A stretch of 64,000 nucleotides of DNA from Caryophanales bacterium (GTDB lineage Bacteria; Bacillota; Bacilli; CAJFEE01), in the NCBI GenBank assembly GCA_029256085.1, contig JAQSYP010000001.1:186001-250000 (forward strand), written 5' to 3'. This document shows, piece by piece, positions 43,860 to 53,303 of the stretch. The notes beneath the pieces were generated by a model that made no database searches, was not told where the DNA came from, and saw only the letters and a list, made by a program, of their open reading frames with translations. Positions within the stretch are counted from its first letter, which is position 1. Every line of letters begins with the position of its first letter. A program made the position numbers and the translations under genes.

Positions 43860-44113
43860 AATGTTAAAAAGGCATAGATTGGGAAGAGTATACCCCTCTT
43901 TAAATTAAGAGAGAGAAACTAGTTGCTGAAAAGTTTCTTATTTAAATGGTTAGAAGGTAGCCCATGAGCCGTTTTTCTGAAAAGAAATCTTAGTAGGAAG
44001 AGCCGTATGCAAACGTTACTTGCTTTAGAGATGTAGCTTATGTTTATTTAGGCTATAAAAAAGGTGGCACCGCGAATACAACCCTTCGTCCTTTTAGGAT
44101 TAAGGGTTTTTTT
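43860..44113 (+). promoter_or_regulatory. T-box riboswitch controlling valS
   Basis: Stem I carries the specifier loop with AGTA on the 5' side near 43888 and GAAG followed by GTA at 43957-43959 on the 3' side; GTA is a valine codon. AGAGAGAGAAA near 43910 is the AG-bulge region. The T-box sequence AGGTGGCACCGCG is at 44062-44074, and the terminator at 44080-44113 overlaps the antiterminator. Uncharged tRNA-Val is expected to permit readthrough. TATAAT at 43782-43787 may be the -10. Confidence 0.93.
44080..44113 (+). terminator. Regulated terminator of the valS T-box
   Basis: AACCCTTCGTCC pairs imperfectly with GGATTAAGGGTT around TTTTA, followed by T residues. It competes with the T-box antiterminator. 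Confidence 0.9.
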
Positions 44114-48601: not shown

Positions 48602-48746
48602 TTAATTATTATTATATTTATTTACTTGATTTTCTTTAAAAATCTCTGTGTTTATTATAAAATAACATATAGTCGATACTTGTCATTTTTTGACTATTAG
48701 TAAAACTAAAAAAAGACAAGTATTTCTGGCAGAGAGAGGTGAAATC

Positions 48747-50186
48747 TTGAATCAATTTACAGTTTCGCTCATAGTACTAATATTACTTTTGCCAATAATG
48801 TACATATTGCCACTAGGTTTTAGTAAAAAGGGCAAGAAAATAATAATCCTAGTTTCTGCATTGCTAGCAATAATTGGTCTATTAGCAAGTAATATTCTAA
48901 CGCTAACAACTGCAATTGTTGTGTTGTTAATAACAAGTATTATCTTTACTGTGTTATTAGAGAAGAATTATGGGGAATCATTGTTGGTAAATGATTTTTC
49001 TAATGCTGTAACTGAAAATAATCTAATAGGACAAGTTTTGCCTAATGATGCAGTGATTCAGAATAACAATATGAATAATGATATTTTAGCTTTTGAACAG
49101 CTAGATGAGAACCTAGAAATGGTCCATAAAATTGAAACAAAAGTATTAGATAAAAATTTACTTAACGAAACTATTGAGAACAATAGTGATACTTTTAAAT
49201 CTAATAATATATCAAGATTCGAAAAATTAATTGCAAATAATAAAGATGACCAAATATCGAAAACAGAAGATATTATAGATGATAATGATATTGATCAACA
49301 TAAAGAACTAGAGTCGTTAAATAAAAATGTAGAAGAAATACAGAGCGATATAGTTCAAGAAGAAGTAAATGAAGATTATCAAGATGAAATACAGCAAGTA
49401 GAAGTAATAGATGAGGAAATATTTCTGGAACAAATTCAAGATAAAGAAGTTGAAAAAAATGAACAACTTCAAGTTGATATGGTAAGTTATCCGGACCAAA
49501 CTCAAGATGAAGTAATTGAAGAAGATCAACAAATTCAAGTTGAAGTGATAAATGAGGAAAGTTATCCTGAACAAATTCAAGATGAAGAAATTGAAGAAGA
49601 TCAACAGATTCAAGTTGGAGTGATAAATGAGGAAAGCTATCCAGAACAAACTCAAGATGAAGAAATTGAAGAAGATCAACAGATTCAAGTTGATGTGATG
49701 AATGAGGAAAGTCATCCTGAACAAACTCAAGATGAAGCAGTAGAAGAAGACAATATGTTTGAGAACGAACTAGTGGATGAAAACATCGAAGAAATTAATC
49801 TAGAATTAGTTCACGAAGAAATAGTAGAAGAAACAAATAACGAAAGTGAAATCCAACTTGAAATTAAACGTAGTTTTAACTATCAAATTGTAGATACACT
49901 AACTAATCAACTTGAATTAGAGGTAGCTCTAATTCATCCTAATGAATTTAAGCAGAGTATCAATAAATTACTGTTAAGTGCAGTAGATACAAGGCAAAGG
50001 TTTACATTACATTATATTCTTGCAAAGAACTTGCTAGTCTTCAAGAAAACTGATGAACTTATAGAACTTATACAAGAACTTAAAGAAGAGTACAGTAATT
50101 ATCCAATGCTACTATTAAATTTAGATTTATTTACGTTAACTGAAAATAATCTTTTAGATAAGGTGGAGAAGTATGAAAAAGAGTAA
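48747..50186 (+). CDS. Unfamiliar membrane protein with acidic tandem repeats
   Basis: This 479-residue protein is not recognised. Residues 1-75 contain about three hydrophobic helices (FTVSLIVLILLLPIMYILPL, IIILVSALLAIIGLLA, LTTAIVVLLITSIIFTVLLE). A long, very acidic, low-complexity region follows, with 25-residue repeats around EEDQQIQVxVINEESYPEQ at about residues 250-335. The C-terminal 100 residues look helical and TPR-like. TTG 48747 follows AGAGAGGTG; the ATG at 48690 would add 19 polar residues with no ribosome-binding site. Its end overlaps the PRC-barrel gene by 14 bases. Confidence 0.75.
   Translation: MNQFTVSLIVLILLLPIMYILPLGFSKKGKKIIILVSALLAIIGLLASNILTLTTAIVVLLITSIIFTVLLEKNYGESLLVNDFSNAVTENNLIGQVLPNDAVIQNNNMNNDILAFEQLDENLEMVHKIETKVLDKNLLNETIENNSDTFKSNNISRFEKLIANNKDDQISKTEDIIDDNDIDQHKELESLNKNVEEIQSDIVQEEVNEDYQDEIQQVEVIDEEIFLEQIQDKEVEKNEQLQVDMVSYPDQTQDEVIEEDQQIQVEVINEESYPEQIQDEEIEEDQQIQVGVINEESYPEQTQDEEIEEDQQIQVDVMNEESHPEQTQDEAVEEDNMFENELVDENIEEINLELVHEEIVEETNNESEIQLEIKRSFNYQIVDTLTNQLELEVALIHPNEFKQSINKLLLSAVDTRQRFTLHYILAKNLLVFKKTDELIELIQELKEEYSNYPMLLLNLDLFTLTENNLLDKVEKYEKE
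49503..49740 (+). repeat. 75-base in-frame tandem repeat
   Basis: Units beginning CAAGATGAAG recur at 49503, 49578, 49653 and 49728, a strict 75-base period. They encode 25-residue repeats in the acidic membrane protein. The first and last units are more diverged, and an older, weaker repeat precedes them. Confidence 0.85.
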
Positions 50187-50943
50187 TGAAATTATAGGTT
50201 TACCTATTATTGGAATTTTAGACGGTCAAGAAATAGGTAAGGTAAGATCTCTAGTAATCAACCCAGATAAACAATCTGTAGATTTTTTAACTATTGAGCA
50301 TGAAGATTGGCAAACTAGTGTTAAAGCTATTCCATTCAAAAAAGTTGTAGGGATTGGGGAATATGCATTAACAGTAGAAAGTGAAAGTGTAATAATAGAT
50401 TTAAATGAAATTCCAATTGCAAACCAATTAGTTAACAAAAAGATTAGAATTATTAATTCAAAAGTGATGACTAGAAAAGGTCAATTACTTGGTGATATTA
50501 AAGAGTATTTTATCGATGAAGAATCAGGAAATATTCTTGGTGTATATATGAACATGAACGGTAAAGAGCTAACGCTCAAATCTGAGAATGTAATCACTTT
50601 TGGAAAAGACATCGTAATTGTAAATGAGGAAGCATCTGTTAGTTTTTTAAGTAACCCTTTAGAACTAGTTGAAGCTGAAGAAACAGTAGCTAAGACGACT
50701 GTTAGCCCAAAGGTTGAGGAAGTTATTTTCCCTAATAATGTATTGGAAAATGATGAAATTAAAGCATTAAAAGATAAGCAAGTTGAGCTACTAGTAGGTA
50801 AAACACTAAGCAAAGATATTTATACAACGAATGGACAAGTTCTTTTTCCTGAAGGAACAGTTTTAACTGAGGAAGACATATTTAGAGCTCAAGAAATTGG
50901 ATCTAATTTAATCATCGAAATTTCGATGAATGTTGAAGCTTAG
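50173..50943 (+). CDS. PRC-barrel domain protein
   Basis: This 256-residue protein has two PRC-barrel-like modules. One lies at about 6-75 (LPIIGILDGQEIGKVRSLVI) and one at about 85-150 (NKKIRIINSKVMTRKGQLLG, then SGNILGVYM). A C-terminal block (GKTLSKDIYTTNGQVLFPEG, near 205-245) resembles the small domain found in YrrD-like proteins. Such barrels often act as ligand- or protein-binding modules; no enzyme activity is expected. It starts inside the end of the preceding gene, after AAGGTGGAG, and ends 29 bases before the VanW-like gene, so it is probably the middle gene of an operon. Confidence 0.75.
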   Translation: MKKSNEIIGLPIIGILDGQEIGKVRSLVINPDKQSVDFLTIEHEDWQTSVKAIPFKKVVGIGEYALTVESESVIIDLNEIPIANQLVNKKIRIINSKVMTRKGQLLGDIKEYFIDEESGNILGVYMNMNGKELTLKSENVITFGKDIVIVNEEASVSFLSNPLELVEAEETVAKTTVSPKVEEVIFPNNVLENDEIKALKDKQVELLVGKTLSKDIYTTNGQVLFPEGTVLTEEDIFRAQEIGSNLIIEISMNVEA

Positions 50944-50972
50944 AAAAATGAAGTAGACCCGAGGTGGTAGAA

Positions 50973-52151
50973 ATGAAAAAGATCAAATTATTTGCAACTT
51001 TATTAATTTGCGCCTTTTTCTTGATGCTAGTGTCTCGTTCTGCTTCTTCTTTTTATCTAAATTTTCAAGAAGGTAATAAAAAATTACCTACTCAAACCTA
51101 TGTCGCTAATATAAATGTTAGTAGTTTATCTAAGCGAGAAGCTGTAGAAAAGGTGGAAGATGAAATTAAAAAGTGGAATCGTTCAGGACTAGCTTTCAAA
51201 TATAATAGCAAGAAAATAAAACCAAGCGGTAATTTAATTGAATTTGAAATTAAAAAAACAGTATATAGTATAAAAAAATCTGGACAATACCCTTTAAAAA
51301 CGAGAATAGAAACTGAAAAAATTGTTAACCAAATCGAACAGGCTACAAATATTAAACTATCAGATAATAAGCAACGGACCGAGGTAATTGAAGAATGTTA
51401 TCGTGTTGCATCGCTTCTAATAGATAAGCCAATTAATCTTAACACCTTCTTAAAAGTTCTTAATGGAACAAATAATATACTATTAAGTAAAACTAGTATA
51501 CATATAAAGAAAAATGAATTAAAACCATTAAACAAAGTTATAGTTATAAATCCTAATGAAACTTTTTCCTTTCTAAATGAATTTAATGAACCAGACTTAA
51601 GTAATGAAGAGCTTCAGTTATTAGCGCGACAAATCTACAAGCTCACAATTAGTTCACCTCTATCTATAGTAGAACGAAATATTAACGATAGACTTGGTGG
51701 TATGGAGTATTTAGGATTTGATGTTAAAATTATAAAGGGAAAAGACGACTTAAAGTTTGAAAATAAGACAAATGATATATTTACCTTAGAGGTTATTACT
51801 AATAAAGGTGAAATATCTGCACAATTATACTCTTCTAATAATAACTATAATTATTCTTATGTTCTAAGAAATAAGAAGAAAATAACTAGACAGAAAATTA
51901 TAGAAAGTGATCCGAAGTTAGAGCAAGGTAAGTATGAAGTTAAATCAGAAGGTTATGATGGGCATTATGTTGAGGTTTATAGAGAAATTAAGAGTAAAGA
52001 CGGAAAAATAACAAAGACTGAATTAATTTCAAAGGATTTTTATGCACCAAAAAACAATTATGTGAAACATGGAATAAAGAAACTAAAGTCACAAGCCGAA
52101 GATCTTCCTCCAAATGTAAGTATTTGGGGAGATACAGATAATAGTAAGTAA
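50973..52151 (+). CDS. Degenerate VanW/G5-like exported protein
   Basis: This 392-residue protein has an N-terminal membrane anchor or signal (about 6-24), a peptidoglycan-binding-4-like region, a VanW-like domain at about 190-290 (VINPNETFSFLNEFNEPD, SIVERNINDR, DDLKFENKTNDIFTLEVI) and a G5-type C-terminus (GKYEVKSEGYDGHYVEVYRE, then ELISKDFYAPKNNYV). The Gly-rich cysteine motif usual in VanW domains is replaced by SNEELQLLARQIYKL. ATG 50973 follows GAGGTGG. It is probably outside the membrane and wall-associated. The substrate is unknown. Confidence 0.72.
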   Translation: MKKIKLFATLLICAFFLMLVSRSASSFYLNFQEGNKKLPTQTYVANINVSSLSKREAVEKVEDEIKKWNRSGLAFKYNSKKIKPSGNLIEFEIKKTVYSIKKSGQYPLKTRIETEKIVNQIEQATNIKLSDNKQRTEVIEECYRVASLLIDKPINLNTFLKVLNGTNNILLSKTSIHIKKNELKPLNKVIVINPNETFSFLNEFNEPDLSNEELQLLARQIYKLTISSPLSIVERNINDRLGGMEYLGFDVKIIKGKDDLKFENKTNDIFTLEVITNKGEISAQLYSSNNNYNYSYVLRNKKKITRQKIIESDPKLEQGKYEVKSEGYDGHYVEVYREIKSKDGKITKTELISKDFYAPKNNYVKHGIKKLKSQAEDLPPNVSIWGDTDNSK

Positions 52152-52153
52152 GG

Positions 52154-52180
52154 AAAAACTCTGTAACTGGAGTTTTTTTT
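52154..52180 (+). terminator. Rho-independent terminator after the VanW-like gene
   Basis: AAAAACTC pairs with GAGTTTTT around TGTAACTG, followed by T residues. It closes the three-gene group. Confidence 0.75.
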
Positions 52181-52349: not shown

Positions 52350-53303
52350 ATGGATAATAATAAGATAATCGTAAAAATTAACGGCAAAGTTAAAGAAGTG
52401 CCTCAAGCCAAGGTAAGTAGAGTTATGACATCAGAGGATAAAGAGGAACTAAAAATGGCAGTACCTTGGTTTCTACCAACAAATATTCCGAGAAAAGTTT
52501 CTCAAGTAAATATAAACAAAGTAATTTCAATAGAAGACTTTAAAACTGCAAAAAATAAAGTGAAAAAAGAATATAAAACTATCGTAAAGAAAATTTTAGT
52601 TTCTATAGCTCTCTCATTATTTTTTGGAACAATGTTAGGGTTTTCTGTTCTATATTTGTTAACTAAATCATCACCCAGCAATGAAACAGTTGTACTGACG
52701 GAAGAAAAGACTACAATGACGAACGAAAATCTAGTCCCGATCAAGTTAGCTTCCTCTGATGTTAAAGTCATCCAGGCTGGTGTATTTTCATCAAAGAAAA
52801 CTTCTCAGAATTATATTCAGCAGTTTGAAAATAAGGTACCTTATGGAACATTTATTTCAGATCATAAATTTTATCTGATTGTCGGGTTAATCGATAGTAA
52901 AAGTCAGATTGCGAGTCAAATTGGTCAAGATTACAACAAACTTGGCCTACCAACATATTTGAAAAATATTACAATACCAGAATTGAATTTTAAAGACTCT
53001 AAATATAATCAAAAGGCTTACAATAATCAAAGGTTAACATTTTTAGAGACAATTAGTATTTTTACAAATGATTTAGAAAGCGGGACTTTATCGAAAGAGA
53101 AATATGAACAAGCTACAAAATCATTCAATTTAAATAAGCCAAAAACTGAATCGGATTCATATAATAAGTTTGTATCAGAATTAAATGAATTCTATTCTAG
53201 TGTAATTAAAAGTGATAAAGTAAATAATCAAACGAGCGAGGAGCAATTGCTTAATGCATTTGTATACTACTACGAATGGTGTAATAGTATGATAAAAAAG
53301 TAA
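52350..53303 (+). CDS. spoIIB: Stage II sporulation protein B (SPOR domain)
   Basis: This 317-residue protein has a cytosolic N-terminus (KIIVKINGKVKEVPQAKVSR), one membrane helix at about 87-108 and an extracellular SPOR domain at about 131-210 (VIQAGVFSSKKTSQNYIQQF, FYLIVGLIDSKSQ, LGLPTYLKN). A helical tail follows. In B. subtilis SpoIIB localises to the polar septum and helps peptidoglycan remodelling during engulfment. ATG 52350 follows TGAGGTGA. Position before maf and domain order fit spoIIB, although the sequence is not highly conserved. Confidence 0.85.
   Translation: MDNNKIIVKINGKVKEVPQAKVSRVMTSEDKEELKMAVPWFLPTNIPRKVSQVNINKVISIEDFKTAKNKVKKEYKTIVKKILVSIALSLFFGTMLGFSVLYLLTKSSPSNETVVLTEEKTTMTNENLVPIKLASSDVKVIQAGVFSSKKTSQNYIQQFENKVPYGTFISDHKFYLIVGLIDSKSQIASQIGQDYNKLGLPTYLKNITIPELNFKDSKYNQKAYNNQRLTFLETISIFTNDLESGTLSKEKYEQATKSFNLNKPKTESDSYNKFVSELNEFYSSVIKSDKVNNQTSEEQLLNAFVYYYEWCNSMIKK

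Follow-up and report, generated by a model that had tools for sequence, protein, structure and literature searches.

The window, a 64,000-nucleotide stretch of the genome of a Caryophanales bacterium, contains three intact plus-strand genes tightly packed at 48747-52151 between folC and spoIIB, an interval that we take to be the comC position of B. subtilis. An earlier note on this DNA had recorded such a group of genes there, with a 14-base overlap between ORF1 and ORF2 and a 29-base gap between ORF2 and ORF3; the frames are intact, and both spacings are exactly as it described. The genes and the elements associated with them are as follows.

48747..50186, + strand: ORF1; TTG start, 479 aa, with a hydrophobic N-terminus, an acidic repeat-rich tail and a C-terminal helical domain
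49395..49750, + strand: acidic tandem repeat of ORF1 with a unit of 75 bp, about 4.5 copies of which span 49427-49750 (Tandem Repeats Finder)
49869..50132, + strand: C-terminal helical (TPR-like) domain of ORF1, approximate limits (alignment)
50173..50943, + strand: ORF2; 256 aa, PRC barrels and a C-terminal extension
50764..50928, + strand: C-terminal domain of ORF2, resembling the N-terminus of HD-GYP proteins (weak NF053512 match, residues 198-241)
50973..52151, + strand: ORF3; ATG start, 392 aa, predicted membrane-anchored exported VanW-like/G5 protein
51624..51830, + strand: C-terminal half of a VanW domain in ORF3 (PF04294, 9e-7, residues 218-286)
51873..52079, + strand: G5 domain in ORF3 (PF07501, 2.8e-9, residues 301-369; fold match)
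about 52154..52178, + strand: weak, short, A/T-rich terminator-like hairpin with T8, 3' of ORF3 (read by eye)

A Shine-Dalgarno-like run lies close upstream of each gene, and an in-frame GTG at 50964 lies ahead of the ATG start of ORF3. The GC content and third-position GC of the trio are those of folC and the other neighbours, giving no sign of recent import. The group had been said to be closed by a terminator; the hairpin can be seen by eye, but the scanner did not list it, its G-C pairs being too few. The start of spoIIB lies 198 bases downstream of the trio, past this hairpin, and the part of the window that runs from folC to radC contains no pil gene.

A promoter-consensus scan returned 36 promoter-like sites against 37.9 in shuffles, which is no excess; comparison by eye of the stretches upstream of the trio and of the remote type IV pilus (T4P) operon described below revealed no trustworthy common promoter elements, and Rfam found no riboswitch close to the trio. 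Between folC and ORF1 (window 48676-48723), A and T runs lengthen a perfect inverted repeat of 9 bp, ATACTTGTC/GACAAGTAT; its folding z-score is only -1.7, and it could be a folC terminator or a leader hairpin. An ordinary T-box leader was placed by Rfam at 43866-44096, upstream of valS. The middle part of the spoIIB-position protein (52350-53303) looks SPOR-like by eye; Pfam found no SPOR domain in this protein even at E 10, contrary to its earlier description as a SPOR-domain protein.

Architecture of the three proteins

ORF1 answers to its earlier description as a repeat-bearing acidic membrane protein: behind a hydrophobic N-terminus, with multiple hydrophobic segments by hydropathy, comes a tail carrying the 75-bp acidic repeat, with a pI near 4 and a D+E content of 27%. 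A Pfam search of ORF1 returned zero matches. Because the first loop is basic in the nearer ORF1 homologues, the predicted topology suggests that the acidic tail is cytoplasmic. In one branch of the ORF1 family the C-terminal end is recognisably a TPR, matching designed TPR proteins at E 3e-13 and better; the link between the C-terminal ends of this branch and of the branch to which the window protein belongs is weak (hhalign E 9e-4, probability only 23%), and the helical C-terminal domain of the window branch may be related to the TPR of its sister branch.

ORF2 matches PRC (PF05239) at 1.9e-10, in two stretches. It has the PRC barrel in common with the YlmC/YmxH sporulation PRC proteins (TIGR02888), but adds a second PRC stretch and a C-terminal extension, and with 17.5 bits against a cut-off of 44.2 it is by score not a YlmC/YmxH member. 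The short domain at the C-terminal end of the PRC protein also forms the N-terminus of an HD-GYP-type protein encoded near the ORF1-PRC pair in two genomes (G381, L117:11563-12627; G363, L118:7509-8573), and this common domain is possibly a second-messenger link. No signal or membrane segment is apparent in ORF2; since its gene, moreover, always lies directly downstream of ORF1, we take the protein to be an adaptor. Its structure model, with a pLDDT of 51, was too poor for a fold search.

ORF3 combines a predicted N-terminal membrane helix with a G5 domain and part of a VanW domain, its match to PF04294 reaching 28.9 bits against a cut-off of 27 over the C-terminal half of the profile only. 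A structure model (pLDDT 73) gave confident matches to G5 domains only (4fzq, 1.8e-6); this supported G5 fold, together with the predicted helix, makes contact of ORF3 with the wall plausible. The protein had been called a degenerate VanW, and the N-terminal half of the domain is indeed unrecognisable, but this is normal for VanW in many T4P operons of the group: in Metabacillus kandeliae, and in the T4P operon of the window genome itself, the T4P-linked VanW proteins likewise match PF04294 over its C-terminal half. ORF3 sits on a long branch (2.04). The remaining domain assignments of the earlier note were recovered, and its parts list of a membrane scaffold, a soluble adaptor barrel and a wall-facing protein is sound.

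Homologues of the trio are associated with type IV pili

Scanning named genomes with the PRC protein alone as query gave matches in M. kandeliae (57% identity), five Jeotgalibacillus genomes (45-46%) and one Selenomonadaceae MAG (36%). The M. kandeliae protein is encoded inside a T4P operon, in the order folC, two more genes, three minor pilins on the opposite strand, ORF1, PRC, VanW, pilB, pilT, pilC, pilin, pilD, pilM, pilN and pilO, followed by a gene that from its position we read as spoIIB. All five Jeotgalibacillus genomes have the same ORF1-PRC-VanW-pilB-pilT-pilC order, the VanW of J. salarius looking frameshifted, and a T4P operon with trio homologues occupies the folC-spoIIB site in several Bacilli. 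That the ORF1-PRC-VanW order recurs in Metabacillus, in Jeotgalibacillus and in many further members of the class indicates that the arrangement is not due to chance. In the Selenomonadaceae MAG (L052:8868-11056), a 363-aa ORF1-like gene directly precedes the PRC homologue and the surroundings hold no pilus gene, which extends the ORF1-PRC pair outside Bacilli.

We then turn to a class-wide sample of 399 genomes, in which the PRC profile cleanly splits long members (E < 1e-48) from short PRC proteins (E > 1e-17). The full-length family is present in 27 of the 399, each time (27/27) with an ORF1-like gene, encoding membrane segments and an acidic tail, directly upstream; a VanW gene follows PRC in 18 of the 27, two of these being shortened (226 and 225 aa). 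The genes thus travel together, which is what the co-occurrence check proposed in the earlier note asked about. The trio is continuous with pilB, pilT and pilC in 14 of the 27 PRC-family genomes, and a strong pilT_fam match occurs in 25 of them, compared with 196 of the 372 others (221/399 over the curated cut-off); the Fisher p of 2.6e-5 for this association is uncorrected for kinship and serves as a guide only. Most T4P genomes of the class are without the PRC family.

Two carriers, G363 and G381, have ORF1-PRC and no pilT_fam match. The nearest relative compared, G001, which is the one genome of the same family in the comparison, encodes only a PRC-like protein of 515 aa in its folC-spoIIB interval (L064:7161-8708), with no ORF1, VanW or T4P operon there and a single weak pilT_fam match. 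These three genomes are the chief evidence against a role confined to pili.

A separate feature of these T4P loci is a large protein of ~950-1500 aa that recurs beside the minor pilins (L107, L108, L110-L114, L048:1144-4707 and similar); it is exported in L048, judging by its N-terminus, and might be a pilus-associated adhesin.

The remote pilus operon and the probable history of a split

The window genome has T2SSE ATPases at four places and prepilin peptidases at three, and com- and tad-like loci are also present. A complete T4P operon lies 306 kb from the trio (G000:C4, about 539,180-551,580; L073), in the order three minor pilins (- strand), a 315-aa ORF1 paralogue, a second VanW, pilB, pilT, pilC, pilin, pilD, pilM, pilN and pilO. 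It holds the only ORF1 and VanW paralogues of the genome; PRC is absent from it, the PRC gene being single copy. Queried with the N-terminal 84 residues of ORF1, the genome gave this operon as the sole other significant place (E 3e-8). The flanking genes are read as ylbJ and ylbK homologues. Beside the end of the operon, a convergent gene (L073:18840-19901) encodes an NrfA-type cytochrome-like protein with multiple CxxCH haem motifs. The PilB of the window genome carries an MshEN-like N-terminal motif, of a type known from related operons to bind c-di-GMP (PMC9765702).

In trees, PilB, PilT, PilC and the window PRC all group with their counterparts in M. kandeliae and G289, with modest support at the nearest fork, and PilB is 75% identical to that of M. 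kandeliae. This agreement between the PilBTC and PRC trees makes duplication or splitting of a single ancestral operon the most likely history, in which ORF1-PRC-VanW would have stayed at folC while the pilus genes moved with the other ORF1 and VanW. The PilBTC tree does not support acquisition of the relocated pilus operon from a foreign source, and the idea that the trio is the relic of a lost pilus is ruled out by the full pilus operon elsewhere in the genome.

Other genomes show the unit partitioned in other ways. G050 and G091 have the reverse arrangement, with a pilus operon containing ORF1 and VanW upstream of spoIIB-like and maf genes and an ORF1-PRC-shortened VanW unit elsewhere; in G020 the trio lies between folC and maf, with more distant pilus genes on another contig; and in family f36 a pilus operon lacking VanW adjoins folC, with ORF1-PRC elsewhere. 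The unit is therefore separable.

Candidate role of the trio

Gram-positive pil operons have the form pilBTC-pilin-pilD-pilMNO (Imam et al. 2011, PMC3244431; P. thiaminolyticus, PMC9765702), and the passages searched in these accounts mention neither a PRC nor a VanW gene in the operon. In several Bacilli such operons begin with homologues of the trio; the window genome has one elsewhere, whereas the trio itself stands alone, without adjoining pilus genes. We consider it probable that the trio is the accessory head of a T4P operon, separated from its pilus genes, and we infer that it would act as an accessory hub. ORF1 would be the membrane hub, its acidic tail and C-terminal helical domain recruiting cytoplasmic clients; the PRC protein would be its soluble adaptor, possibly responsive to a second messenger through the HD-GYP-associated C-terminal domain; and the VanW/G5 protein would touch the wall on the outside. 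Together, hub, adaptor and wall protein could position or gate the PilB/PilC/PilM pilus machine in a cell without an outer membrane or secretin. The literature searched contained no description of the trio module, and in the open-access literature, which is weak evidence of absence, we found no paper linking a VanW or PRC-barrel protein with T4P.

The layout of ORF1 recalls that of FimV/HubP, which comprises a membrane anchor, an acidic stretch (with imperfect repeats in HubP) and a C-terminal TPR, and which in P. aeruginosa, as FimV, places and tunes T4P (PMC12918733). ORF1 likewise has a membrane anchor, an acidic repeat-bearing tail that is predicted to be cytoplasmic, a C-terminal helical/TPR-like domain and a T4P link, but it has multiple hydrophobic segments instead of one, and a PRC adaptor gene alongside. 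Pfam found no LysM match in ORF1, very little of which lies outside the membrane, and TIGR03504 (FimV_Cterm) did not match the window protein, the best homologue (L054) scoring 12.8 bits against a cut-off of 30.65; ORF1 is therefore not a FimV/HubP member, though by analogy it may work like such a hub. We regard it as possible, and put it forward tentatively, that in monoderms ORF1-PRC takes the functional place of the FimV/HubP polar hub, as a membrane scaffold and adaptor encoded by two genes across Bacillota, in which VanW/G5 would supply wall binding in trans in place of a built-in LysM. No polar hub for monoderm T4P was found in the literature searched.

Other readings weigh the same observations differently. 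It is rather doubtful that ORF1-PRC, with or without VanW, is a general organiser of the membrane or envelope that only sometimes sits in a T4P operon and here serves a non-pilus client, for example in division or polar organisation: the pair is a constant unit (27/27), it stands alone in f22 (no pilT), f36 and the Selenomonadaceae MAG, and G001 combines a PRC-like gene with only one weak pilT_fam match, but 25 of the 27 carriers also possess pilT, half of them with the genes directly in the operon, and the trio paralogues of the window genome sit in a pilus operon. Intact frames with good ribosome sites, a single-copy PRC that is still 57% identical to that of M. kandeliae and the persistence of stand-alone ORF1-PRC units in several lineages make it unlikely that the trio is a decaying relic, left functionless at its old site after the pilus operon moved, even though ORF3 has diverged fast (branch 2.04), ORF1 and VanW have paralogues in the working operon and the comparable stand-alone unit of G050/G091 contains a shortened VanW.

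The earlier note had favoured an envelope or engulfment module working with SpoIIB in sporulation, which we now consider very unlikely. Such a role would fit the adjacency to spoIIB and the sporulation annotation of the YlmC/YmxH PRC proteins, although ORF2 falls far under the cut-off of that family. The recurring neighbours, however, are type IV pilus genes and not sporulation genes, and they lie between the trio and spoIIB in T4P-bearing relatives; spoIIB itself begins only beyond the 198 bases that include the terminator-like hairpin, and the PRC unit is found away from folC-spoIIB in G050/G091, f22 and f36. spoIIB lies at the edge of a site that houses the T4P operon in many Bacilli.

To our knowledge, how monoderm T4P pass through a thick wall without a secretin is poorly understood. 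As the head of a pilus operon, the trio of hub, adaptor and wall protein offers concrete candidate genes for the questions of a polar hub and of wall passage; the monoderm hub reading, if true, would tie placement of the pilus, or of another machine where the pilus is absent, to second-messenger signalling. The accessory-head reading also allows a simple view of the B. subtilis comC site, in which the folC-spoIIB interval houses the pilus operon of many Bacilli: B. subtilis would retain there only the peptidase gene comC, a pilD homologue, and the window genome only the operon head.
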